This document shows positions 3,890 to 63,018 of a stretch of DNA of 64,000 nucleotides, piece by piece (position 1 is the first letter of the stretch; each line of letters begins with the position of its first letter). The stretch comes from Maribacter stanieri. GTDB taxonomy: Bacteria; Bacteroidota; Bacteroidia; Flavobacteriales; Flavobacteriaceae. The stretch is from positions 545,856 to 609,855 of the forward strand of contig NZ_FOYX01000001.1 of NCBI RefSeq assembly GCF_900112245.1, in the 5' to 3' direction. Below the pieces are notes generated by a model, which was given only the letters and a program-made list of their open reading frames with translations, made no database searches and had not been told where the DNA came from. A program made the position numbers and the translations under genes.

Positions 3890-4459
3890 ATGCTGAAGAA
3901 AGATTTACGCATAAAATATTCTCTGCTACGTAGTTCCTTATCTACCCAAGAATTATCATCTAAAAGTATTGCAATTGCAAATTCAGTTTTGCAATTGCCA
4001 ATATGGAATAATCAATATTTCCATATTTTTCTACCTATTGAGCAAAAGACTGAAATAGATACAGAAGGCATTATATCTATACTTCTTGGTTTGGATAAAA
4101 ATGTAATTGTCCCAAAAGTTATTTCACCTACTCAACTGGAACACTTTCTACTTACTGACAATACAAAGTTTACAACCAATAATTTAAATATACCTGAACC
4201 TGTTGATGGTATTACCATTGAAACTAGCAAACTGGATGTAATATTTATTCCGCTTTTAGCTTTTGATGAATCAGGAAATAGAATAGGATACGGCAAAGGA
4301 TACTATGATCGTTTTCTTAAAAATTGTAGAAAAGATGTCATAAAAATAGGTCTATCATTTTTTGAAGCTGAGGAAAAAATAGATGATATTGCACCAACAG
4401 ATATACCGTTAGACTATTGTGTTACCCCTTATAAGACCTACTCTTTTAGAACTTCTTAA
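3890..4459 (+). CDS. 5-formyltetrahydrofolate cyclo-ligase
   Basis: ATP-dependent enzyme converting 5-formyl-THF to 5,10-methenyl-THF, returning a storage or inhibitory folate to one-carbon metabolism. The length (189 residues) is typical. The family signature GYGKGYYDRFL (about residues 134-144, phosphate/ATP site) is intact, and the N-terminus has the usual basic start followed by a Rossmann-like core. The stop codon TAA shares the self-complementary TTAA at 4456-4459 with the stop of the convergent lspA. No hairpin terminator was seen at that junction. Confidence 0.95.
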   Translation: MLKKDLRIKYSLLRSSLSTQELSSKSIAIANSVLQLPIWNNQYFHIFLPIEQKTEIDTEGIISILLGLDKNVIVPKVISPTQLEHFLLTDNTKFTTNNLNIPEPVDGITIETSKLDVIFIPLLAFDESGNRIGYGKGYYDRFLKNCRKDVIKIGLSFFEAEEKIDDIAPTDIPLDYCVTPYKTYSFRTS

Positions 4460-5109
4460 TCTTGCAAAGTTTCATTTGCTTCAACAGCAACTTCTTCCTC
4501 TTTGTTAAAAGCACGTTTATTGAAAACAAGTAGAATACCAACACCTGTACTTATTGCTGTATCTGCAATATTGAATACTGGTTCAAAAAATCTAAAATTC
4601 TGACCTCCTACCATAGGCATCCAAGAGGGCCACGTAGAATCTACCATTGGGAAATATAACATATCCACTACTTTACCATAAAACAATTTACCATATGGCT
4701 CATCAGAAAAGAGCGTTGCTACTTCATTATAACTTTCATTGAAAATTGCACCGTAGAAGACTGAATCTAAAATATTCCCCAAAGCTCCCGCAAATATTAA
4801 TGAAACTGCCCAAATCAAAGTATTGGATGCTTTTTTCTTAATAACATCAAAAAGCCAATAGCCAATGCCAAAAATTGCAAATAACCTAAAAACGGTCAGT
4901 ACTAGTTTTCCTATATTATCTGATATAGGTAAGACATCACTTAGCTTTGCTCCCCAGGCGGCTCCTTCATTTTCAATGAAAAGAATTTTAAACCAGTTAA
5001 ACACTTCAACAGATTCTCCCAACACAAAATGGGTCTTTATATAAATTTTACTCCATTGATCAATTATTAATATCAATAAAATAAATAGTACAGATTTTTT
5101 AATGTTCAT
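4456..5109 (-). CDS. lspA: Lipoprotein signal peptidase (signal peptidase II)
   Basis: Inner-membrane aspartyl protease that removes the signal peptide from diacylglyceryl prolipoproteins. Four hydrophobic spans are visible (about residues 5-22, 70-88, 98-118 and 180-197). The catalytic aspartates are Asp115 in GNILDSV and Asp183 in NIADTAIS; the substrate-side motif NEGAAWG (about 47-53) is present. At 217 residues it exceeds the about 165 of E. coli because of a long periplasmic loop between the catalytic motifs, a common Bacteroidota form. It serves the many lipoproteins in this window. It lies 33 bases after a DUF4097-like gene, probably in one transcript. Confidence 0.96.
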   Translation of the reverse strand: MNIKKSVLFILLILIIDQWSKIYIKTHFVLGESVEVFNWFKILFIENEGAAWGAKLSDVLPISDNIGKLVLTVFRLFAIFGIGYWLFDVIKKKASNTLIWAVSLIFAGALGNILDSVFYGAIFNESYNEVATLFSDEPYGKLFYGKVVDMLYFPMVDSTWPSWMPMVGGQNFRFFEPVFNIADTAISTGVGILLVFNKRAFNKEEEVAVEANETLQD

Positions 5110-5142
5110 GGGCTTTAATCAATGAGCGCAAAAATATAAATA

Positions 5143-5763
5143 TTATTCGGTTTTACTAAGATCTATATTTCCGGTAACAGTTTCTAATTTATAAGTAGAT
5201 GTTCCATAGGGAATAGAATTAAAAGATACTTTGCCATATTTACTTGTAGCGTTAATTTGAGCTGACTCAGAGACTACTTTTATATTACCACTCTGCGATT
5301 TAACCGTAGCATCTGCATCTACATTATTCAACAAGCAAGTGCCATCAGATAAGGACACGTTAAGCTCTTTATATACTCCATCTATGACAACTCTAGAATT
5401 AGTACCGAAGATTTCTAACTTTTTATGTACAGGCATGTTCAACCTCAACAAAATAGAAATTACTTTATGTGCACTTAATTTATCATTAGGATTTTCAAAA
5501 CTTGGTGTAAAACCTGTTTCTACAATCAATGTATTACCATTTGTTACAACCTCTAAACCTAAATCTTGACTATACTCGCCTTCTATTTCTGCCTCTACGC
5601 TAATCTCGTTCCCTAAGCTAGTATGCACTTCTACAATGTAGCAATTGGTAGCATCTATTTGTATTAAGCCTATATGATCTGCTAATATTTTATTGTAAAT
5701 TTTCTTTTGAGCATTAAGCCCCAAACAAAGCAATAGCAGAAAATACAGTAAACACTTCTTCAA
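5143..5763 (-). CDS. Exported DUF4097-like beta-repeat protein
   Basis: A 206-residue protein with an N-terminal signal peptide (residues 1-18, LLYFLLLLCLGLNAQ) and a body of repeated short beta strands ending in VTGNIDLS-type turns, the pattern of DUF4097 / GIN-type adhesin-head domains. Function is unknown; an envelope location is likely. The start appears to be TTG at 5763: no in-frame ATG lies upstream, and the next ATG would remove the signal peptide. A strong hairpin terminator of the upstream operon ends only 15 bases before this start. It precedes lspA by 33 bases. Confidence 0.72.
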   Translation of the reverse strand: MKKCLLYFLLLLCLGLNAQKKIYNKILADHIGLIQIDATNCYIVEVHTSLGNEISVEAEIEGEYSQDLGLEVVTNGNTLIVETGFTPSFENPNDKLSAHKVISILLRLNMPVHKKLEIFGTNSRVVIDGVYKELNVSLSDGTCLLNNVDADATVKSQSGNIKVVSESAQINATSKYGKVSFNSIPYGTSTYKLETVTGNIDLSKTE

Positions 5764-5777
5764 AATATAGCTATTAA

Positions 5778-5799
5778 AAAACGCCCCTAAAGGCGTTTT
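5778..5799 (-). terminator. Rho-independent terminator of the ileS/dksA-like operon
   Basis: The arms AAAACGCC (5778-5785) and GGCGTTTT (5792-5799) form an 8-base stem with a 6-base loop, followed on the minus strand by a T run. It begins three bases after the stop of the DksA-like gene. It also lies directly ahead of the next minus-strand gene, so that gene needs readthrough or a promoter in the hairpin region. Confidence 0.85.
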
Positions 5800-5801
5800 A
5801 A

Positions 5802-6185
5802 TTATGATTGCATATTCTTAGCTTCAATACTAAGCGTGGCATGCGGCACAAGTTTTAACCGTTCTTTGTTGATTAGTTTTCCTGTAACACGACAAATGCC
5901 ATATGTTTTATTTTCTATACGTAGCATTGCATTCTTAAGATCACGAATAAATTTTTCTTGTCTAATAGCCAATTGCGTATTAGCTTCTTTACTCATTGTT
6001 TCAGAACCTTCTTCAAAAGCTTTAAAGGTAGGCGATGTATCATCTGTACCATTATTACCATCATTCATATAAGCACTTTTTAATAGCTCTAAATGACTTT
6101 TAGCCTTTTCTATTTTCTCTTCGATTAATACCTTAAATTCTGCCAAATCTTTGTCAGAATACCTCACTTTTAAATCTTCTGCCAT
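5802..6185 (-). CDS. TraR/DksA family RNA polymerase-binding regulator, degenerate zinc finger
   Basis: A 127-residue DksA-like protein with a long helical hairpin (about residues 10-95) and a C-terminal globular part, YGICRVTGKLINKERL followed by VPHATLS. Canonical DksA has a four-cysteine zinc site; here only one cysteine remains and the rest are replaced, so it probably folds without zinc. Such forms are common in Bacteroidota. By family it would bind the secondary channel of RNA polymerase and modulate initiation, perhaps with ppGpp; the target genes are unknown. It starts three bases after ileS and shares that transcript, ending at a strong terminator. Confidence 0.9.
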   Translation of the reverse strand: MAEDLKVRYSDKDLAEFKVLIEEKIEKAKSHLELLKSAYMNDGNNGTDDTSPTFKAFEEGSETMSKEANTQLAIRQEKFIRDLKNAMLRIENKTYGICRVTGKLINKERLKLVPHATLSIEAKNMQS

Positions 6186-6188
6186 CTC

Positions 6189-9100
6189 TTAATGTTTTTC
6201 AATAAACAATTTTGTGTTCACCTCGTCAAAAGTAATTTCAACACCTTCGTCCAATTTTTCTTCAAAAACCAATTCTGCTGTTAAAGTCTCCGTTTTAATA
6301 TACTCAATATTATTCTGAACAGCTACTTCAACAAAACCGTCTTTTAAAATTTTAACCGTAATCTTATCAGTTACTTCAAAACCAGAATCTTTTCTTATGT
6401 TTTGAATTCTATTCACTAATTCCCTTGCAACACCTTCATTCCTTAATTCCTCATTGATGGTAACATCTAAAGCAACGGTTAATTTTCCCGAAGTTGCCAC
6501 CATCCATCCTTCAATATCTTGCGAAGAGATTTCTACATCTTGTAACTGTAAAGTAATACTTTTATTATTTAATTCGATTGTTAATTCGCCATCCTGCTCA
6601 ATTTTTTGGATGTCATTCTGAGTAAACCCGTTAACAACTTGAGCAATTTGCTTCATTTCCTTTCCGAATTTTGGACCTAAAGTCTTGAAATTCGGCTTAA
6701 TACGTTTTACCAATATTCCAGATGCATCATCTAGCAATTGAATTTCCTTAACGTTAACTTCAGATTTTATTAATTCTGATACTGCTTCAATTTCTTCTCT
6801 GTCCTTATTATCTAGAACAGGAATCATAATTTTCTGCAATGGTTGACGGACTTTTATCTTCTCTTTTTGGCGAATAGATAATACCAAAGACGAAATTGTC
6901 TGTGCTTTCTCCATTTTAACCTCTAAGCTTGTATCTATCAAGGTTTCATCTGCTACAGGGAAATCTGCCAAATGAACACTTTCAAATCCTTTTTTCACGG
7001 TTGCTTTATTTAAATCTAAATACAAACGATCCATAAAAAACGGAGCAATCGGTGCCGACAATTTAGCAACTACATCTAAACAGGTATACAAAGTTTGATA
7101 AGCCGCAATTTTATCTTGAGCATATTCCCCTTTCCAGAAACGTCTTCTGCACAAACGTACATACCAGTTACTTAAGTTCTCTTGAACGAAATCTGATATT
7201 GCTCTCGCTGCCTTGGTAGGCTCATATTCTTCATAAGCCGTGTCTACAATCTTTATTAACGAATTCAATTCTGACAAAATCCAACGGTCAATCTCTGTAC
7301 GTTGAGCCATTGGCACGTCTTCCTCGGCATATGTAAACTTGTCTAAATTTGCATATAGACCAAAAAACGAATACGTATTATATAAGGTTCCAAAAAACTT
7401 ACGCTTAACCTCTGCTATACCTTCTGTGTCAAATTTTAAGTTGTCCCAAGGGTTGGCATTGCTAATCATATACCATCTTGTGGCATCTGCACCATGAGCG
7501 TTCATAGTCTCAAAAGGATCCACGGCATTGCCCAATCGCTTAGACATTTTCTTACCATCTTTATCTAAAACCAGACCATTAGAGACTACGTTCTTATATG
7601 CGACCGAGTCAAATACCATTGTTGCTATAGCATGCAATGTGTAGAACCAACCACGAGTTTGATCCACACCCTCTGCAATAAAATCTGCAGGAAATGTCTT
7701 TCCTTCATCTATCAACTCTTTATTTTCAAATGGGTAATGCCACTGGGCATAAGGCATAGAACCACTATCAAACCAAACATCGATCAAATCACTTTCTCGT
7801 TTCATCGGCTTACCTGAAGCCGAAACTAATGTAATTTGGTCAACAATATTTTTATGTAAATCTATTTTATCATAGTTCTCTTCAGACATATCGTCCACTA
7901 CGAAATCTGCATAAATATCCTTTTCTAAAACTCCAGCCTCAACAGCCTTTTTCATTTCAGATTTTAATTCCGCAACAGAACCAATGATTATTTCTTCCTT
8001 ACCATCTTCTGTTCTCCAAATTGGTAATGGAATACCCCAATATCTTGAACGAGACAAATTCCAGTCATTGGCGTTTGCCAACCAATTTCCAAATCTACCT
8101 TCACCTGTTGCTTTTGGTTTCCAGTTAATGGTTTTGTTCAACTCAAACATCTGATCTTTTACATCAGTTACTTTAATGAACCAAGAATCTAATGGATAAT
8201 ATAGAATTGGTTTGTCCGTACGCCAACAGTTAGGGTAACTGTGTACATATTTTTCAACCTTAAAGGCTTTGTTCTCTTCTTTTAATTTAATGGCAATTTC
8301 AACATCTATAGAACGTTCTGGAGCTTCGCCATCTTCATAGTACTCGTTCTTAACATACTTACCACCTAATTCTTTTAATTCAGGTCTAAACTTACCTTGC
8401 AAATCGACCAAAGGAACCAAGTTTGCGTTTTCATCCAATACTAGCATTGGCGGAATTTCCGGTACTGCTTGTTTAGCTACAAAGGCATCATCTGCACCAA
8501 AAGTAGGTGCCGTATGCACTATTCCGGTACCATCTTCTGTTGTAACGAAATCACCAGCTATTATTCTAAAAGCATTTTCAGCATTTTCATACGGAAGCAC
8601 ATAATCTAACAACTGCTCATACCTAATACCTAATAAGTCTTTACCCTTAAACTCTTTTACAACATAAAAAGGGATTTTTTTATCACCAGAAGTGTATTCA
8701 AGCAATTCAGATTTATCTGAAACTTCATTGAACTTTCCTGAGAACTGCTTACCTACCAAGTTTTTGGCAAGAATAACGTTCATGGGTTCAAAAGTATATT
8801 GGTTATAAGACTCAACTAATACATAATCTATTTTAGAACCTACAGTTAGTGCCGTATTAGAAGGAAGAGTCCAAGGTGTGGTAGTCCAAGCCAAGAAATA
8901 AATAGTGCCTTCGTTCTGCAAAAAATCTGGCAATGTTTCTTCTACAGCTTTAAACTGTGCAGTTACCGTAGTATCTGTAACATCTTGGTACGTACCCGGT
9001 TGGTTTAACTCATGAGAACTTAAACCTGTACCTGCTTTTGGTGAATATGGTTGTATGGTGTAGCCTTTATAAATCAAACCTTTTGAATAGATTTGCTTTA

Positions 9101-9587
9101 ACAGCCACCAAACGGTTTCCATGTATTTAGATTTGTAGGTAATGTACGGATCCTCCATATCTACCCAATACCCTACTTGTTCGGTCATTGAATTCCAAAC
9201 ATCCGTATATCTCATAACCGCTTTCTTACAAGCAGCATTATACTCTTCAACTGAAATCTTTACTCCGATATCTTCTTTTGTAATACCCAGTTCTTTTTCA
9301 ACTCCAAGTTCAATTGGAAGACCATGCGTATCCCAACCAGCTTTACGTTTTACTTGAAAGCCTTTCATGGTCTTATACCTAGGGAAAATATCCTTTATGG
9401 TTCGAGCCATTACATGATGTATACCAGGCATACCATTTGCAGACGGCGGACCTTCATAGAATACATAACTATCCTTACCCTCACGGGAAGAAATACTTTT
9501 CTCAAAAATGGCATTCTTTGACCAGTAGTCAAGTATTTCTTCTGCGACCTTTGGTAAATTCAATCCTTGATATTCTGTGAACTTCAT
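6189..9587 (-). CDS. ileS: Isoleucyl-tRNA synthetase, type 2, with swapped GIHH signature
   Basis: Class I aminoacyl-tRNA synthetase charging tRNA-Ile. At 1132 residues it matches the longer IleRS2 branch (E. coli IleRS1 has 938). The N-terminal signature after PPSANGMP reads G55-I56-H57-H58, that is GXHH instead of the canonical HXGH. The KMSKR loop (about residue 679) is intact, as are the editing insertion and the anticodon-binding C-terminus (motifs WDTHGLP, DVWFDSGS, RGWFYTL). Published work on IleRS2 links GXHH to mupirocin hyper-resistance. The gene heads an operon with the DksA-like gene three bases downstream. A -7 box lies at 9622-9629. Confidence 0.98.
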   Translation of the reverse strand: MKFTEYQGLNLPKVAEEILDYWSKNAIFEKSISSREGKDSYVFYEGPPSANGMPGIHHVMARTIKDIFPRYKTMKGFQVKRKAGWDTHGLPIELGVEKELGITKEDIGVKISVEEYNAACKKAVMRYTDVWNSMTEQVGYWVDMEDPYITYKSKYMETVWWLLKQIYSKGLIYKGYTIQPYSPKAGTGLSSHELNQPGTYQDVTDTTVTAQFKAVEETLPDFLQNEGTIYFLAWTTTPWTLPSNTALTVGSKIDYVLVESYNQYTFEPMNVILAKNLVGKQFSGKFNEVSDKSELLEYTSGDKKIPFYVVKEFKGKDLLGIRYEQLLDYVLPYENAENAFRIIAGDFVTTEDGTGIVHTAPTFGADDAFVAKQAVPEIPPMLVLDENANLVPLVDLQGKFRPELKELGGKYVKNEYYEDGEAPERSIDVEIAIKLKEENKAFKVEKYVHSYPNCWRTDKPILYYPLDSWFIKVTDVKDQMFELNKTINWKPKATGEGRFGNWLANANDWNLSRSRYWGIPLPIWRTEDGKEEIIIGSVAELKSEMKKAVEAGVLEKDIYADFVVDDMSEENYDKIDLHKNIVDQITLVSASGKPMKRESDLIDVWFDSGSMPYAQWHYPFENKELIDEGKTFPADFIAEGVDQTRGWFYTLHAIATMVFDSVAYKNVVSNGLVLDKDGKKMSKRLGNAVDPFETMNAHGADATRWYMISNANPWDNLKFDTEGIAEVKRKFFGTLYNTYSFFGLYANLDKFTYAEEDVPMAQRTEIDRWILSELNSLIKIVDTAYEEYEPTKAARAISDFVQENLSNWYVRLCRRRFWKGEYAQDKIAAYQTLYTCLDVVAKLSAPIAPFFMDRLYLDLNKATVKKGFESVHLADFPVADETLIDTSLEVKMEKAQTISSLVLSIRQKEKIKVRQPLQKIMIPVLDNKDREEIEAVSELIKSEVNVKEIQLLDDASGILVKRIKPNFKTLGPKFGKEMKQIAQVVNGFTQNDIQKIEQDGELTIELNNKSITLQLQDVEISSQDIEGWMVATSGKLTVALDVTINEELRNEGVARELVNRIQNIRKDSGFEVTDKITVKILKDGFVEVAVQNNIEYIKTETLTAELVFEEKLDEGVEITFDEVNTKLFIEKH

Positions 9588-53935: not shown

Positions 53936-54937
53936 ATGGAAGAAAATACTTCAATTGACATTAGTGCCGTAAATGAGAAGATTGCTCGCGAAAGTGCTTT
54001 TATCGATTTACTGATGCTTGAAATGAATAAGGTAATCGTTGGCCAAAAGTATATGGTAGAACGATTACTAATTGGTCTTTTAGGGCAAGGGCATATCTTA
54101 TTAGAAGGTGTTCCCGGTCTAGCAAAAACCTTAGCCATTAATACGCTTTCAAAAGCTGTTAAAGGTAGTTTTAGTAGAATACAGTTTACACCAGATTTGC
54201 TTCCTGCAGATGTTGTAGGTACGTTGATCTATAACATGAAATTAAACGACTTCTCTATTAAGAAAGGTCCAATTTTCGCCAATTTTGTTCTTGCGGATGA
54301 GATTAACCGTGCACCAGCAAAAGTGCAGTCTGCATTATTAGAGGCAATGCAAGAAAAGCAAGTTACTATTGGTGACGAAACTTTTATTCTTGACAAGCCT
54401 TTTCTAGTGATGGCTACTCAAAACCCGGTAGAGCAAGAAGGAACCTATCCACTTCCGGAAGCACAGGTTGACCGTTTTATGTTGAAAACGGTTATCGATT
54501 ATCCAAAAATTAATGAGGAGCAATTAATAATGCGCCAAAATTTATTGGGTAACTATGAGACCGTAAATGCTGTGGTATCTATAGAACAAATACTAAGCGC
54601 ACAGAAAGCGGTACGTGAAGTATATATGGACGAAAAAATCGAAAAATATATTCTTGATATTGTCTTCGCTACTAGATATCCTGAAAAATATAATTTAGAA
54701 AGCTTAAAACCTTTAATCAGTTTTGGTGCTTCGCCAAGGGGAAGTATCAATTTAGGTGTCGCTGCAAAATGTTATGCCTTCATTAAAAGAAGGGGCTACG
54801 TTGTTCCTGAAGATGTACGAGCTATTGTACATGATGTTTTAAGACATAGAATAGGAATTACCTACGAGGCCGAAGCTGAAAATATTACCTCTGTTGATAT
54901 CATCAACAAAATTGTAAACGAGATCGAAGTACCTTAA
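53936..54937 (+). CDS. moxR: MoxR-family AAA+ ATPase
   Basis: A 333-residue MoxR/RavA-type ATPase. Walker A is EGVPGLAKTLAIN, Walker B is LADEINRAP, sensor 1 is MATQNP and the sensor-2 region is in SPRGSINLGVAAK. MoxR proteins act as chaperone-like remodellers of VWA proteins. Here it opens the locus DUF58 - BatD-like - batABCDE, so it most likely acts on those VWA products. A 96-base gap separates it from DUF58; co-transcription is probable. Confidence 0.95.
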   Translation: MEENTSIDISAVNEKIARESAFIDLLMLEMNKVIVGQKYMVERLLIGLLGQGHILLEGVPGLAKTLAINTLSKAVKGSFSRIQFTPDLLPADVVGTLIYNMKLNDFSIKKGPIFANFVLADEINRAPAKVQSALLEAMQEKQVTIGDETFILDKPFLVMATQNPVEQEGTYPLPEAQVDRFMLKTVIDYPKINEEQLIMRQNLLGNYETVNAVVSIEQILSAQKAVREVYMDEKIEKYILDIVFATRYPEKYNLESLKPLISFGASPRGSINLGVAAKCYAFIKRRGYVVPEDVRAIVHDVLRHRIGITYEAEAENITSVDIINKIVNEIEVP

Positions 54938-55033
54938 ATTCAGTTCTTAATATTTATCGCTCGTAATATATTTTATTACTAAATGCTAAATATGATTTAC
55001 TGAAACAGAGACTGTAAACTGTTTACTATAAAA

Positions 55034-55900
55034 ATGGATACCAAAGAGCTACTCAAAAAAGTACGGAAAATAGAAATAAAGACGAGACGTCTTTCTGACC
55101 ATATATTTGGTGGGGAATACCACTCTACCTTTAAAGGTCGTGGTATGACGTTTAGTGAAGTACGCCAGTACCAATTTGGGGATGATGTAAGAAATATTGA
55201 TTGGAATGTTACCGCCCGCTATAGTGAGCCTTATATAAAAGTTTTTGAAGAGGAGCGAGAATTAACCATGATGCTTGTGGTAGATATTAGTGGTTCAGAA
55301 TTATTTGGTACCACTAATCAATTTAAAAATGATATAGTAACAGAAATATCGGCAACCTTAGCGTTTAGTGCACTAAAAAACAATGATAAGGTAGGTATCG
55401 TTTTATTCTCTGATCAGATAGAGCTTTTTATTCCGCCTAAAAAAGGGAAGACTCACGCTTTACGTATCATTAGAGAATTACTAGAGTTTAAACCAAAAAG
55501 CAATAAAACAGATATAGCCCAAGCATTAAAATTCTTGAGCAGCGTCATGAAAAAGAAAGCCATTGTCTTTGTCCTTTCCGATTTTATTGATGAAGGATAT
55601 GAAAAAACCTTGAAAATTACCGGAAGAAGACATGATTTAACCGGTATTCGTATTTATGATGAACGAGAAGAATCTATCCCAAATTTAGGGATGGTTCAAA
55701 TGCAAGATGCCGAAACAGGAAAATTACAATTGGTAAATACCGCGTCTAAAAAAGTAAGAAATGCGTATGCAGAATTTCACAGAGAACGTGTAACTTATTT
55801 CAAAGAGTCTTTCACGAAATCTGGATGTGGGGTTTTAGATTGTAGAGTAGACGAAAGTTACGTTAAAAAATTATTGGGCTATTTTAAAAGAAGAGGTTGA
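55034..55900 (+). CDS. DUF58 protein (VWA-like), Bat locus
   Basis: A 288-residue cytoplasmic DUF58 protein. The DUF58 signature is visible as FKGRGMTFSEVRQYQFGDD and RNIDWNVTAR. It is followed by a VWA-like fold with a modified metal site VVDISGSE (DxSxS) instead of DxSxSM. It is the usual partner between MoxR and the Bat membrane proteins. It ends five bases before the next gene. Confidence 0.92.
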   Translation: MDTKELLKKVRKIEIKTRRLSDHIFGGEYHSTFKGRGMTFSEVRQYQFGDDVRNIDWNVTARYSEPYIKVFEEERELTMMLVVDISGSELFGTTNQFKNDIVTEISATLAFSALKNNDKVGIVLFSDQIELFIPPKKGKTHALRIIRELLEFKPKSNKTDIAQALKFLSSVMKKKAIVFVLSDFIDEGYEKTLKITGRRHDLTGIRIYDEREESIPNLGMVQMQDAETGKLQLVNTASKKVRNAYAEFHRERVTYFKESFTKSGCGVLDCRVDESYVKKLLGYFKRRG

Positions 55901-55905
55901 TACGA

Positions 55906-57567
55906 ATGATTTATATAAATAGAATAATTGAAAATGGTGCTTCGTTCATAAAACGAATATCACCCTTATTCGTATTTCTACTGTTCATTTTTGAGCTATC
56001 TGCGCAAGAACGCCCAAATATCTCTACGAAGGTTGACACTACTTTCATAAAAATTGGCGAGCAAGTTCAATGGACCGTTACTGTTGATATAGATTCTACC
56101 GACTTTGTTATTTTCCCTGAAGGACAAACATTTTCCCCTTTAGAAACTGTAGAAGCTTTTGCGACAGATACCACAAGAAAAAAAGATAGACTAACACTTC
56201 AAAAAATATATGCCCTAACCCAGTTCGATTCTGGCGCATACAAGTTACCGTCTCAACGTATTGATATTAATGGAACAGGTTTTATGACCGATTCTATGTT
56301 GATTAATGTGGCTACTATTCCCGTAGACACACTAAATCAGAAAATGTATGACATTAAGCCACTTATTAATGTTGAGAAAAGTAACTACGATTTTTGGACC
56401 TACTTACTTATAGGTCTTTTAATCCTATCTATTTTAGGGGGATTATTATATTGGTTCGTATTCCGTAAAAAACCGTTGACAGAAGAGGAAAAAGTAGCCC
56501 TGTTACCTCCTTATGATAGAGCCTTACTTGAACTTAAGCGTTTAGAAAATTCTAAATACTTAATACAAGATGAATACAAACAATACTACTCTGAATTAAC
56601 CACCATTGTACGTTCTTATCTAGAAGAAGATGCGCATGTAACAGCATTAGAAAGTACTACCGGACAATTAATTGAGAAATTGGAACTCTTAAAAGATGCC
56701 GGTGAATTGAAATTGGATGATGATACCATCAAACAATTTCAACAAATACTACAGACGGCAGATTTGGTGAAATTCGCTAAGAACAAACCATCTACTACCG
56801 TTGCAGAACAAGATAGAAAACTGGTAGAACAGATTGTAGAAAAAACTCATGAAGCTTTACCAGAACCTACAGAAGAGGAATTACTGGAACAAGCAGAATA
56901 CCAAGAAGAATTAGAGCGTAGAGCTAAAAAGAAGAAAATTAAAATTGCCATAATATCCACTATTGCCGTGATACTTATAGGCATTACTATTGCTGGGGTC
57001 AAATTTGGGTTTGGCTACATGAAAGATACTGTTCTTGGTCATCCAACAAAAGAATTATTAGAAGGAGAATGGATTCGTAGCAGCTACGGTTTCCCTCCTA
57101 TACAATTAGAGACTCCACAAGTATTAATACGTCAAAAAATAAAACTACCTGCAGAGGCAAAAGCTGCAATAGCAGATATACAAGCGTTTCAATATGCAAG
57201 TCCAATTGGTCTTTTTAATATTGGTACTACTTCCATTACTCTAACACAACAAGATGTTGAACCCGATTTTGAAAAAACAATTGAGCAAATTCTATCGAAT
57301 TTTGAAAGTCAAGGCGCAAAAAACATCATTACAAAACAAGAAGAATTTAGTACCATAAGCGGGGTTAAAGGTCTAAAAGTTTATGGAAGTGGTCAGTTTA
57401 TAGCACCTGGTGCAAAAAAATTAACGGAAGGTGAATATACCGTACTACTTTTTGGTGGCAAAGGTTTTCAGCAATACATTATTCTAACTTGGTTAGAAGA
57501 CGATAACTACGCTCAAGAAATAGTAGACCGAATTTTAGCATCGGTAGAAGTTAAAACAGAATTATAA
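55906..57567 (+). CDS. BatD-like membrane protein of the Bat locus
   Basis: A 553-residue envelope protein. After a signal peptide (about residues 18-33) comes a BatD-like beta domain (about 35-145), a transmembrane helix (about 163-183), a cytosolic helical stretch with the YYSELTTIVRSYLEE motif, a second helix (about 346-368) and a further beta-rich domain. The ATG at 55906 is preferred over an upstream TTG at 55897. It is typical of Flavobacteriaceae Bat loci, between DUF58 and batA. Its exact role is unknown. Confidence 0.8.
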   Translation: MIYINRIIENGASFIKRISPLFVFLLFIFELSAQERPNISTKVDTTFIKIGEQVQWTVTVDIDSTDFVIFPEGQTFSPLETVEAFATDTTRKKDRLTLQKIYALTQFDSGAYKLPSQRIDINGTGFMTDSMLINVATIPVDTLNQKMYDIKPLINVEKSNYDFWTYLLIGLLILSILGGLLYWFVFRKKPLTEEEKVALLPPYDRALLELKRLENSKYLIQDEYKQYYSELTTIVRSYLEEDAHVTALESTTGQLIEKLELLKDAGELKLDDDTIKQFQQILQTADLVKFAKNKPSTTVAEQDRKLVEQIVEKTHEALPEPTEEELLEQAEYQEELERRAKKKKIKIAIISTIAVILIGITIAGVKFGFGYMKDTVLGHPTKELLEGEWIRSSYGFPPIQLETPQVLIRQKIKLPAEAKAAIADIQAFQYASPIGLFNIGTTSITLTQQDVEPDFEKTIEQILSNFESQGAKNIITKQEEFSTISGVKGLKVYGSGQFIAPGAKKLTEGEYTVLLFGGKGFQQYIILTWLEDDNYAQEIVDRILASVEVKTEL

Positions 57568-58566
57568 ATGTTCGATAATATATCATTTGCAAATCCTGAT
57601 TTCTTTTGGCTGTTCCTATTACTGCCATTGGCAATTGTGTGGTATATCTTTAAACAAAAAGAGCAAACTGCATCTCTACGAATTTCTAGCGCCAAAGGAT
57701 TCAGTTACAATAGCATTTTACCAAAACTAAAACCAGGTTTATTCCTTTTAAGATTGTTGGCGTTAGGTGCTATTATTGTAGCATTGGCAAGACCACAAAC
57801 AGAAGATATTTCTACACGATCTAAGACCACTAAAGGTATTGACATTGTTATGGCAATAGATGTGTCTTCTAGTATGTTAGCACGAGATTTAAAGCCAAAT
57901 AGACTTTCTGCATTAAAAGAAGTAGCTGCAGATTTTATTAAAGAAAGACCAAATGATCGTATAGGTCTTGTTGTTTATGCAGGTGAAGGTTACACAAAAA
58001 CACCTATTACTACAGACAAGTCAATTGTACTTAACGCGCTTTCAGAAATTAGTTACGGGCAATTAGATGATGGTACCGCAATAGGTATGGGGTTAGCCAC
58101 TTCGGTTAACCGTTTAAAGGAAAGTAAGGCTAAAAGTAAAATTATTATTCTATTGACAGATGGTGTAAACAACTCCGGTTTTATTGAACCACAAACTGCT
58201 GCAGATCTTGCTATTGAATTTGGAATTAAAACCTACACTATTGGTATCGGTACAAATGGTAATGCCTTAACACCTATTCAATACAATCCTGATGGTTCTT
58301 TTAGATATGGAATGCGACAAGTTGAGATAGACGAAAACCTATTAAAAGATATTGCTACCGCTACCGGTGGAAAGTATTTTAGAGCTACTGATAATGAATC
58401 TTTAGAGGAAATCTATGACGAAATCAATAAACTAGAAAAAACAGAGGTAGAAGAATTTAAATACTACCGCTACGAAGAGAAATTTAGACCTTGGATTTTA
58501 TTGGCGGGAATATTGCTGTTGTTAGAATGGATTTTAAGAAATACGCTATTTAGAAGCTTTGTATAA
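57568..58566 (+). CDS. batA: BatA, VWA-domain membrane protein
   Basis: A 332-residue protein: an N-terminal aerotolerance helix pair (about 8-27 and 55-75), a VWA domain (about 90-295) with an intact MIDAS site (MAIDVSSSMLARD, then the threonine in TTDKS and the aspartate in LLTDG), and a C-terminal anchor (about 309-328). It follows the previous gene without a gap and precedes batB by one base. The role is envelope-stress or aerotolerance, inferred from the bat loci of Bacteroides and Leptospira. Confidence 0.94.
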   Translation: MFDNISFANPDFFWLFLLLPLAIVWYIFKQKEQTASLRISSAKGFSYNSILPKLKPGLFLLRLLALGAIIVALARPQTEDISTRSKTTKGIDIVMAIDVSSSMLARDLKPNRLSALKEVAADFIKERPNDRIGLVVYAGEGYTKTPITTDKSIVLNALSEISYGQLDDGTAIGMGLATSVNRLKESKAKSKIIILLTDGVNNSGFIEPQTAADLAIEFGIKTYTIGIGTNGNALTPIQYNPDGSFRYGMRQVEIDENLLKDIATATGGKYFRATDNESLEEIYDEINKLEKTEVEEFKYYRYEEKFRPWILLAGILLLLEWILRNTLFRSFV

Positions 58567-58567
58567 T

Positions 58568-59614
58568 ATGATACAGTACGACGAAACATTATATTTCTAT
58601 TTGCTCATTATCATTCCAGTGATAGTGGTGTTGTATCTATTGGTATTGGTATGGAAAAAGAGAACCCAAAAGAAGTTTGCAAATACCGATCTTCTAAAAA
58701 GGTTAACTCCAAACCGTTCATATAACAAAGCAGGTATAAAATTAATTGTTTTCATCCTTGCATTGGCGTTATTAATTATTGGCTTGGTTAACCCTAAAAT
58801 AGGGACAAAATTAGAAACCGTAAAGAGAGAGGGAGTTGATATCGTTTTTGCAGTAGATGTTAGTAAAAGTATGCTAGCGGAAGATATTGCACCAAACAGA
58901 TTGGAAAAAGCTAAAAGATTGGTTTCTGAAATTATAAATCAATTAGCAAGTGACCGTATTGGTATCATTGCCTATGCCGGGCAAGCATACCCTCAATTAC
59001 CGATTACCACAGATTATGGCGCAGCAAAAATGTTCTTGCAAGGCATGAATACAGATATGCTAACGTCACAAGGTACAGCCATTGATCAAGCAATAGAATT
59101 GGCTACTACCTTTTATGATGATGCTGAACAGACTAATCGTGTTTTGTTCATAATTTCTGATGGTGAAGACCATTCTGAAGGCTCAACTTTAGATGCTGTA
59201 GAGGATGCTGTTGATGAAGGAATTATAATTTACACTATTGGTGTTGGTAAAGAAAAAGGAGCTCCCATACCAATTAAGAGAAACGGAATTTTAGAAAGCT
59301 TAAAAAAGGATAGTCAAGGCGAAACCGTTATTACCAAATTAAATGAAAGTATTTTGGTTGATATCGCTAATGAGGGAGAAGGGCAATATATAGATGGTTC
59401 TAATACAGATGTAGCAGTAGAATTTATTAAGGAGGAGTTGTTAAAAATGGACAAGAAGGAATTTGAAGCCAAACAATTCGCAGAATATAAAGATCAGTTT
59501 CAATGGTTTATCGGTGGGGCATTGTTGCTTCTTTTTTTAGATATATTTATCTTGGACCGCAAGACGAGCTGGTTAAAAAAACTCAATTTGTTCAATGAGA
59601 AAAGAAATGAATAA
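58568..59614 (+). CDS. batB: BatB, VWA-domain membrane protein
   Basis: A 348-residue paralogue of BatA: two N-terminal helices (about 10-28 and 58-76), a VWA domain with a full MIDAS (FAVDVSKSMLAED, TTDYG, ISDGEDHS) and a C-terminal helix (about 311-328). The ATG at 58568 is preferred to a TTG at 58559 inside batA. Its 3' end overlaps batC. Confidence 0.94.
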   Translation: MIQYDETLYFYLLIIIPVIVVLYLLVLVWKKRTQKKFANTDLLKRLTPNRSYNKAGIKLIVFILALALLIIGLVNPKIGTKLETVKREGVDIVFAVDVSKSMLAEDIAPNRLEKAKRLVSEIINQLASDRIGIIAYAGQAYPQLPITTDYGAAKMFLQGMNTDMLTSQGTAIDQAIELATTFYDDAEQTNRVLFIISDGEDHSEGSTLDAVEDAVDEGIIIYTIGVGKEKGAPIPIKRNGILESLKKDSQGETVITKLNESILVDIANEGEGQYIDGSNTDVAVEFIKEELLKMDKKEFEAKQFAEYKDQFQWFIGGALLLLFLDIFILDRKTSWLKKLNLFNEKRNE

Positions 59615-60470
59615 AATTAGCGCAATTTTACTTTTGGTTTTTGCTTGCTTATCATCTTTTGCTCAAGAAGTTGACGAGAAGGAAAAAGAAAAGGCATTAA
59701 AATCATCTACAAACCTTACGTGGGATGCTAACAAGGCATTATCAGAAGATAATTTTGTTGCAGCAGAAGTAGATTATAGAAAAGCAATTGCTAAAAGTGG
59801 AGAAAATAGTGCAGCTCCCTATAATTTAGGAAACGCCTATTACGAAAACGAAACGTACAACGAAGCTTTTGGAAGATTTAAAGAAGCTGGCGAAGCATCT
59901 ACTTCAAAAGCTGATAAACACAAAGCCTATCATAATATGGGTAATGTTTTCATGAAACGTAAAGACTATGCTAAAGCTGTTGAAGCTTATAAGGAAGCTT
60001 TGCGTAATGATCCTACAGATGAAGAAACTCGCTACAACTTAGCTTTGGCGAAAGAACTCCTTAAAAAAGACCAAGACGATAACAAACAGGATCAAGACGA
60101 TAAGGATAAGGATAAGGACAAAGATCAAGACGAGGATAAAGATCAGGACAAAAAGGACGAAGGAGAAAACGAGGATAAAAAAGATCAGGGAGACGAAGGT
60201 GACAAGGGTGATGAAGGCGATAAAGATGAAGAAAAGAAAGACGACAATAAAGAAGGCGAAGGAGATAACAAGTCTGATCAAAAGAAAAAGCCAGAACAAG
60301 GCGAAGGTGATAACGAGCAAGAGCAACAACAACCTAGACCAAATCAACTTTCTAAGCAACAAGTTGAAAATCTATTGAGAGCCATGCAAAATGCAGAAAA
60401 AAAGGTTCAAGATAAAATAGATGCAAAAAAAGTAAAAGGTGCTAAAATTAAAAACGAAAAGGATTGGTAG
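59595..60470 (+). CDS. batC: BatC, TPR protein with acidic low-complexity tail
   Basis: A 291-residue exported TPR protein: signal peptide (ILLLVFACLSSFAQ), TPR units (about 45-150; YNLGNAYYEN, YHNMGNVFMKR, TRYNLALAK) and a long Asp/Lys/Glu/Gln-rich low-complexity region (about 157-255). It is expected to scaffold the VWA proteins in the periplasm. The start overlaps batB by 20 bases; Met at 59607 is an alternative with a cleaner signal peptide. Confidence 0.9.
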   Translation: MRKEMNKISAILLLVFACLSSFAQEVDEKEKEKALKSSTNLTWDANKALSEDNFVAAEVDYRKAIAKSGENSAAPYNLGNAYYENETYNEAFGRFKEAGEASTSKADKHKAYHNMGNVFMKRKDYAKAVEAYKEALRNDPTDEETRYNLALAKELLKKDQDDNKQDQDDKDKDKDKDQDEDKDQDKKDEGENEDKKDQGDEGDKGDEGDKDEEKKDDNKEGEGDNKSDQKKKPEQGEGDNEQEQQQPRPNQLSKQQVENLLRAMQNAEKKVQDKIDAKKVKGAKIKNEKDW

Positions 60471-62254
60471 ACTTTAAGTCCATAACAAAACTTGGGTTAC
60501 TTATAACCATTTTTCTATCATCAATATTGATGATGGGACAAGATAGTGATACCGTAACTTTTGAAATGAAATTGAGCAAACCAAAGCTTGGTTTAAACGA
60601 AAGATTACGCGTAGATTTTATCATGAACCGTGATGGCGATAATTTTAACCCTCCGGATTTTACCGGATTTAAAGTAGTTATGGGACCATCACAATCCATT
60701 AGTTCTTCTTGGATAAATGGTGTTAGAAGTTATTCCAAATCTTATTCTTATACACTAGCTCCTACTTCAAGAGGTAAATTCACTATTAAGCAAGCTTCTA
60801 TTGTTATTGGTGGAGAAACTTATAAATCATTAGCTAAGGAAGTTGAAGTTACCGCTGCTGTAGATAAACCTAGCGATCAGATGACCGCTGATGATGTGGC
60901 AGATGAAAATCTACATTTAGTTGCTGAAATTTCAAAAACGAATCCGTATTTGAATGAAGCCATAACTGTAATTTATAAGCTATACGTTAGCCCTAACATA
61001 AGTGTATCAAACTATCAACCGCTAGATAATCCAACATATAATAACTTCTGGAGTCAAGACATTAAAGTAAATGCCCTTAGTGCACAAAATGGCACTTACA
61101 AAGGCAAACCTTATCGTTATGTAATATTAAAACGCGTTGTTCTTTATCCGCAGAAATCAGGCAAACTAGATATTGAACCTCTTTCTCTTGATGTTACCGT
61201 AGACGTACCTTCTAACAGACGAAATTTCTTTGGTCAAAGAATGTATGACCAAACTAACAAAACCGTATCTGCAGGTAAAAGAACAATTAATGTAAAGCCT
61301 TTGCCTTTAGAAAACCAGCCTGCTGATTTCAACGGTGCTGTAGGTGATTTTGATTTTTCAGTAACAACGAGCAAAACAAGCTTAAATGCTTCAGAATCTT
61401 TACAAGCAACCGTAGAGGTAAGTGGAAAAGGAAATCTTAAATTATTTAAGCTTCCTGAATTGGAATTACCAAGTGCGTTAGAGGTTTACGAGCCTGAATT
61501 CACAGAAGGTGTAAGAACAACTTTAGCAGGTATGCAGGGCAAGGTGAGCAACCAATATACCATTGTGCCTTCATTTAGAGGTAAATATCCTATTTCACCT
61601 TTAAATTTTAGTTATTTCAATCCGTCTACCGGGAAATACACCACCTTAACATCAGACGAAATTGTTATAAATGTTTTAGAAGGTCCACTAAGTGCATCTG
61701 CTAATGCCGAACAAAATTCAAATACTCAAAAACAGTCTATAATTACCAGTGGAGATCAATTTAATTTTATAAAATTGAATCCTGACTTAACAAGCAAATC
61801 TGTATCATACTTTTTTGGATCCACTTCATTCTATATTTGGCTGTTGTGTCCACTACTATTAATTCCTTTAGCTATAGTATTTAGAAAAAGAAGAGACTCC
61901 TTAGCCGGTGATGTTGTAGGTAATAAAATTAGAAAGGCGAACAAACTAGCCCGTAAGTATCTATCCGCCGCTAAAAAAGAACTTGGAAACAAAGAATCTT
62001 TTTACGTTGCCCTAGAGCGAGCGCTACATAACTATTTGAAAGCAAAGTTAAAGATTGAAACTTCTGAATTCAGTAAAGATAAAATTACGGAACTGCTTAC
62101 AGAAAAACAGATAGACGATGCTACCGTAAACAGTTTCATCGACCTTCTTAAAAATTGTGAATCTGCCAGATATAGCCCTTTTTCTAACGTACAAATGCAG
62201 GCAGATTATGATAAGGCAAGTGAAGTAATCTCTAAAATGGATAAACAATTATAG
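60464..62254 (+). CDS. batD: BatD, aerotolerance-locus membrane protein
   Basis: A 596-residue BatD-family protein: a signal peptide (about residues 7-25), repeated Ig-like beta domains (about 30-450; TFEMKLSKPKLGLNERLRV, split after PKLGLNERL) and a membrane helix near 465-485, followed by a cytosolic helical tail. No ATG lies in the proper place: the start is TTG at 60464, seven bases before the end of batC, and the next Met would delete the signal peptide. So translation is probably coupled to batC. Confidence 0.9.
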   Translation: MVDFKSITKLGLLITIFLSSILMMGQDSDTVTFEMKLSKPKLGLNERLRVDFIMNRDGDNFNPPDFTGFKVVMGPSQSISSSWINGVRSYSKSYSYTLAPTSRGKFTIKQASIVIGGETYKSLAKEVEVTAAVDKPSDQMTADDVADENLHLVAEISKTNPYLNEAITVIYKLYVSPNISVSNYQPLDNPTYNNFWSQDIKVNALSAQNGTYKGKPYRYVILKRVVLYPQKSGKLDIEPLSLDVTVDVPSNRRNFFGQRMYDQTNKTVSAGKRTINVKPLPLENQPADFNGAVGDFDFSVTTSKTSLNASESLQATVEVSGKGNLKLFKLPELELPSALEVYEPEFTEGVRTTLAGMQGKVSNQYTIVPSFRGKYPISPLNFSYFNPSTGKYTTLTSDEIVINVLEGPLSASANAEQNSNTQKQSIITSGDQFNFIKLNPDLTSKSVSYFFGSTSFYIWLLCPLLLIPLAIVFRKRRDSLAGDVVGNKIRKANKLARKYLSAAKKELGNKESFYVALERALHNYLKAKLKIETSEFSKDKITELLTEKQIDDATVNSFIDLLKNCESARYSPFSNVQMQADYDKASEVISKMDKQL

Positions 62255-62256
62255 GT

Positions 62257-63018
62257 ATGTTCAAAAAGCTAACTACACTTATTATCCTCTTTACAGCGGT
62301 TCTTTGTGCTGCTCAGAACAATCAATTATTTGAGCAAGCAACTGAAGCATACAATGCCGGTGAATATGAAAAAGCTATAAGTTATTACGAGAATATTTTA
62401 ACGAACGAAAAGCATTCGGCTGCAGTGTATTATAACCTCGGAAATTCTTACTATAAGCTTAATAATATTGCCGAGAGTATATATTATTACGAAAAAGCGT
62501 TGTTGTTATCCCCAAATGACAAGGAGATAAAAACGAATTTAAGTTATGCCCAAAATATGACCATAGATGCAATAGATACTATGCCAGAAACGGGTTTGTC
62601 TAGATTATATAAAAATATAACCGGTAAATTAACTTTTGACCAATGGGCTTATACAGCTATAGGGTTTATGCTCCTTTTTGTACTATTTTATATCCTATTT
62701 TACTATTCTAATTTTTCCACTAGAAAAAGGTTTACGTTTATTGGTAGTATAGTTGCCCTATTTCTTTGCATTATCTCAATTCTTTTTGCCTACATACAAC
62801 GAAATGATTTTGACCAATACCAACCTGCAATTATATTTGCAGAGGAAAGCGTTATTAAATCTGAACCAAACGATACTAGCGCTCAAGTATTTTTAATTCA
62901 TGCAGGAACAAAAGTGAATGTTCTAGATCAATTAGATTCATGGAAAAAAATTAAATTAGCAGACGGAAAGACTGGTTGGATTCAAAAAGAAGAACTAAAA
63001 ATGTTGAAGGATTTTTAG
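62257..63018 (+). CDS. batE: BatE, TPR and SH3-like membrane protein
   Basis: A 253-residue protein: a signal peptide (about residues 5-18), TPR repeats (about 22-105; YYNLGNSYYKL), two membrane helices (about 130-150 and 160-180) and a C-terminal SH3b domain (about 195-250; VIKSEPNDTSAQVFLIHAG, KTGWIQKEEL). It is the last gene of the bat locus, two bases after batD. Confidence 0.9.
   Translation: MFKKLTTLIILFTAVLCAAQNNQLFEQATEAYNAGEYEKAISYYENILTNEKHSAAVYYNLGNSYYKLNNIAESIYYYEKALLLSPNDKEIKTNLSYAQNMTIDAIDTMPETGLSRLYKNITGKLTFDQWAYTAIGFMLLFVLFYILFYYSNFSTRKRFTFIGSIVALFLCIISILFAYIQRNDFDQYQPAIIFAEESVIKSEPNDTSAQVFLIHAGTKVNVLDQLDSWKKIKLADGKTGWIQKEELKMLKDF

Follow-up and report, generated by a model that had tools for sequence, protein, structure and literature searches.

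A natural GIHH signature in the only isoleucyl-tRNA synthetase found in Maribacter stanieri, and GXHH in its sampled relatives across Bacteroidota

Results

The ileS locus

The window considered here is a stretch of 64,000 nucleotides from contig NZ_FOYX01000001.1 of Maribacter stanieri (assembly GCF_900112245.1), and it contains ileS, the gene for isoleucyl-tRNA synthetase (IleRS), together with the features listed in Table 1. The product scores 1002.8 bits against TIGR00392, for which the cut-off is 621.4, and has Pfam matches to tRNA-synt_1 (PF00133), Anticodon_1, and DUF5915. An initial annotation of this DNA had placed the gene at the right coordinates and left its strand unstated. The strand is the minus one, on which the 1132-residue frame runs uninterrupted, whereas plus-strand translation of the same interval is full of stops. 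Two further blocks found in the product, WTTTPWTLPSN and GTGIVHTAPTFGADD, are ones that we take to be part of the editing domain. A search of the window with Rfam gave no family at or above its gathering score, and so no T-box leader was detected at that threshold.

Table 1. Features of the ileS locus, in window coordinates
Feature	Position	Strand	Basis
ileS, isoleucyl-tRNA synthetase type 2, 1132 aa	6189..9587	-	TIGR00392, Pfam domains, ORF
GIHH in place of HXGH, codons 55-58	9414..9425	-	translation, DNA, alignment to 8c8u/8c8w
HYPFE, eukaryote-like (IleRS2) marker, codons 617-621	7725..7739	-	marker from PMC4861432
KMSKR, second class I signature, codons 680-684	7536..7550	-	sequence
Anticodon-binding domain PF08264, residues 767-919	6831..7289	-	Pfam
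C-terminal DUF5915 (PF19302), residues 938-1131	6195..6776	-	Pfam
TraR/DksA-type zinc-finger protein, 3 bp downstream of ileS	5802..6185	-	PF01258

After ileS, the interval 4456-6185 holds the TraR/DksA-type gene, a neighbour that the motif does not require, then a DUF4097 gene and lspA. A scan of genome contigs for relatives gave at least 593 matching stretches, of which the best 80 were used; 74 of these 80 have more than 2.5 kb of downstream sequence. The TraR/DksA-type gene adjoins ileS in all 74 and lspA lies near it in 67, a gene order that fits vertical inheritance of a core gene. Elsewhere in the window, MoxR-like ATPase, DUF58/VWA-type, and TPR-like proteins follow one another on the plus strand at 53936-63018, in a gene order that resembles a Bat operon.

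An IleRS of type 2

The product had been described as being of the long IleRS2 type, and several features bear this out. HYPFE is present and the IleRS1 marker NKIL is absent, both being markers described in PMC4861432, and the IleRS1-type zinc-finger domain is missing among the Pfam matches at E <= 0.001. HYPFE itself is not invariant, its H being kept in 79 and its E in 74 of 81 aligned loci. Scores against chains of the PDB point the same way, with 809.6 bits for the IleRS2 chain 8c8w compared with 301.3 for the best IleRS1 chain (8c9f, a GMHH mutant) and 293.5 for wild-type IleRS1 (8c9e). The closest solved sequences are thus those of Priestia megaterium IleRS2, and the best match among them is the GVHH mutant 8c8w rather than the wild-type HVGH chains 8c8u (804.5 bits) and 8c8v (802.9 bits), although the sequences as printed differ at a few further residues beyond the motif. 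The motif context of the mutant, GPPTANGLPGVHH, is almost the same as that of the Maribacter enzyme, GPPSANGMPGIHH. In P. megaterium, however, the natural IleRS2 has the canonical HVGH and occurs alongside an IleRS1, whereas in Maribacter GIHH is natural and the gene stands alone. The available part of one source on IleRS types lists IleRS2 in Gram-positives, chlamydiae, spirochaetes, and deinococcales, and Bacteroidota are unnamed there (PMC4861432).

GIHH in place of HXGH

Residues 46-58 of the enzyme read GPPSANGMPGIHH, and the place of HXGH is taken by G55-I56-H57-H58, encoded by ggt ata cat cat (window positions 9425..9414). The exchange of the first and third signature residues that the initial annotation had noticed therefore stands at the level of protein, DNA, and alignment: in phmmer alignments, G55 and H57 fall opposite the H and G of the wild-type HVGH (8c8u, 8c8v), and the GVHH mutant 8c8w has G and H at the same two places. 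Other class I enzymes detected by PF00133 in the same genome keep HXGH, as HMGH in the ValRS-like, HVGH in the LeuRS-like, and HIGH in the MetRS-like protein; within this set, the swap is specific to IleRS. The nearest proteins, from Maribacter orientalis and M. zhoushanensis, are 95% identical to the window's, in keeping with a marine, Maribacter-like flavobacterium, and GPPSANGMPGIHH is identical to the letter at both Maribacter loci (L006 and L007).

A single ileS in the genome

Only one ileS above the TIGR00392 cut-off was found in the 4.46 Mb genome, an assembly of nine contigs that is not closed and is rated 100% complete with 0.1 contamination. The search for a second, canonical copy, raised in the initial annotation as a check, found none with either TIGR00392 or PF00133. 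The remaining PF00133 matches are ValRS-, LeuRS-, and MetRS-like frames of 897, 1008, and 695 residues, with the motif contexts PPPNVTGILHMGH, PYPSGAGLHVGH, and PYTNGPIHIGH, which we take to be those of ValRS, LeuRS, and MetRS. Because the sole ileS found lies in a genome rated complete, the earlier suggestion that it is probably the housekeeping enzyme is supported.

GXHH among relatives and across the phylum

The count of GXHH that had been proposed as a check, made here on relatives, left no exception. The best 80 of at least 593 loci, whose titles name flavobacteria or unclassified Bacteroidetes and which are headed by the two from Maribacter, have GIHH (59) or GVHH (21) in 80 of 80 cases. 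A broader sample comprised 198 genomes of the phylum in 103 genera. A match to the Maribacter IleRS at E <= 1e-50 was present in 197 of the 198, and exactly one TIGR00392 match at E <= 1e-100 in 196 (four candidates scored per genome). The motif was read in 114 ileS genes, those of 114 of the 198 genomes with at least one genome for each of the 103 genera, and all 114 have GXHH and none HXGH.

These 114 genes were gathered in two parts. The first 81, with the window's own genome among them, consist of 30 returned loci and 51 taken from among the matches listed, one per further genus, and divide into GIHH (69) and GVHH (12). Since this listing favoured high scores, 33 further genes were added, one for every genus still unrepresented (32) and, in addition, the copy in genome G176, and they have GIHH (29), GVHH (2), GMHH (1), or GLHH (1). 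Across the 82 rows of an alignment that joins the first 81 loci to the window, whose own gene it therefore contains twice, no change is seen at G55, H57, or H58, at pairwise identities as low as 43% (median 51%).

Two genomes appeared to be exceptions and both turned out to carry GIHH: in G190 the two TIGR00392 matches belong to one frame of 1269 residues (locus L184), and in G176 the ileS is a fragment at a contig end (L207). The family match of the L184 frame (G190:C10:23828-26995) comes in two pieces, which suggests an insertion inside the synthetase.

Discussion

A swapped class I signature in IleRS is not unprecedented, and the link between GXHH and mupirocin hyper-resistance to which the initial annotation appealed is real (Brkic et al., 2023; PMC10485003). 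Among the 379 prokaryotic IleRSs compared in that study, IleRS2 enzymes have HXGH in 77 cases and G/AXHH in 86, and the swap was never found in IleRS1; that split is the study's own, while our sampling of IleRS2 lies within one phylum. G/AXHH was tied to a high mupirocin Ki by exchanging the motif in both directions. The natural ALHH enzyme of Deinococcus radiodurans, for example, has a Ki of 6.6 mM, which falls 823-fold when the canonical motif is introduced, and a catalytic efficiency like that of canonical IleRS2, and the Streptomyces griseus IleRS2, also with a non-canonical motif, has a Ki in the millimolar range. Mutant structures from P. megaterium indicate that the third His of IleRS2 can occupy the acting place of the first, and in modelling it collides with mupirocin, a clash that the authors offer as a hypothesis (Brkic et al., 2023). 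That study's main text nowhere uses the stem 'Bacteroid', and Bacteroidota may well be among its 86 G/AXHH enzymes.

The Maribacter IleRS is an ordinary member of this published and well-explained kind. It shares with the D. radiodurans and S. griseus enzymes the IleRS2 type, a Gly or Ala at the first position, and a His at the third, and its KMSK is intact; IleRS identity, type 2, Gly first with His third, and the KMSKR loop were all found in it. It differs from them in being flavobacterial, with GIHH and a Ki that is only predicted. We consider it highly probable that this sole housekeeping IleRS2, with its natural GXHH, should charge isoleucine and resist mupirocin, activity and resistance being read from the motif and its published counterparts. 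The His at the third position would take over the role of the first His of HXGH, isoleucine charging would be normal, and the same His would clash with mupirocin and confer resistance to very high concentrations of it, probably from high micromolar to millimolar.

How far the published constants carry over is a separate matter. Two IleRS2 enzymes engineered to carry the swap reached a Ki of only 35 and 460 micromolar, with kcat or KM changed by up to 10-fold (Brkic et al., 2023), and set against the 6.6 mM of the natural enzyme these values mean that the size of the GXHH effect depends on its background. Reasoning from the motif alone also ignores other contacts with mupirocin, such as that of residue 672, and this counts against a simple carry-over of a published Ki. 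Residue 672 (window positions 7572-7574) is Leu where the aligned residue of P. megaterium IleRS2 is His582, and the 82 aligned rows have Leu in 75 and His in 7. The IleRS1 counterpart of His582, Phe586, lies near adenine and mupirocin according to the same study, and residue 672 could influence how adenine and mupirocin are contacted next to GXHH. Our literature search found no measurement on this enzyme or on any Bacteroidota IleRS2 and no direct paper on Bacteroidota mupirocin MICs; slight support comes from a model, in the part of the source available, which predicts that mupirocin (5 micrograms per ml) raises Bacteroidaceae diversity on plates (PMC13085705).

GXHH looks fixed throughout the phylum in its sole housekeeping IleRS, and thus looks to be the normal state of the phylum and not a peculiarity of this organism. 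This is a modest addition to what was known, and no paper stating such fixation was found in our literature search. It is tempting to suppose that drift, or some catalytic reason, fixed the motif at an early stage of the phylum's history as an equally good catalytic arrangement, with mupirocin resistance a by-product that was never selected. This account concerns origin and is compatible with the expectation of an active, resistant enzyme; we give it somewhat less than an even chance. In its favour, all 114 genes, covering every sampled genus, have GXHH, and the efficiency of the D. radiodurans ALHH enzyme points the same way. On the other side, Brkic et al. (2023), as far as the available text goes, presume that an environmental antibiotic selected the motif and infer at least two origins and one reversion, and other IleRS2 lineages have HXGH, in one case by reversion; in addition, ancient antibiotic exposure is possible. 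A stronger version, in which GXHH is the ancestral and near-universal signature of the phylum's only IleRS and brought target-level hyper-resistance without antibiotic selection as its cause, is offered more tentatively still. Given that every sampled genus has GXHH and genomes have one ileS each, the balance leans to a catalytic variant that is old and stable and whose resistance is intrinsic to the target; a response to antibiotic in recent times, or a strain-specific acquisition, is the less likely account.

Could the gene instead be a MupA/MupB-type resistance copy that arrived by horizontal transfer? These synthetases are IleRS relatives by NCBIfam score, and MupB (780.5 bits) and MupA (733.7 bits) are indeed the next-best NCBIfam matches. 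Both scores are far below the curated NCBIfam exception cut-offs of 1900 bits, however, and the Maribacter ileS is chromosomal and the only copy found. The traR/dksA and lspA neighbours shared with relatives, and the flavobacterial or unclassified Bacteroidetes affiliation of the best 80 loci, with Maribacter nearest, also speak for a resident gene. We therefore reject acquisition as very improbable. Poorest of all is the notion that GIHH is a sequencing or frame artefact, in favour of which we found no point and which we regard as practically negligible: the frame is unbroken, the same letters recur in independent assemblies, relatives carry GXHH, and a sequencing slip is very unlikely when two Maribacter species share GPPSANGMPGIHH and G55, H57, and H58 are invariant in all aligned rows.

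The old, stable housekeeping variant favoured here has consequences beyond one flavobacterium. In this organism and in every relative of the phylum that was read, the housekeeping enzyme has as its normal state an active-site rearrangement that is already in the literature, which predicts target-level indifference to mupirocin for the group. It is also a warning to resistome surveys, at least one of which lists ileS as a mupirocin-resistance gene in the part available (PMC11170968), that such ileS genes should not be counted as acquired resistance. The conserved link between ileS and a DksA-like gene invites a question about the stringent response. For enzymology, the phylum offers many natural enzymes in which a His at the third position must replace the first, and if GXHH is truly ancestral, these enzymes would represent a stable second way to build a class I active site.
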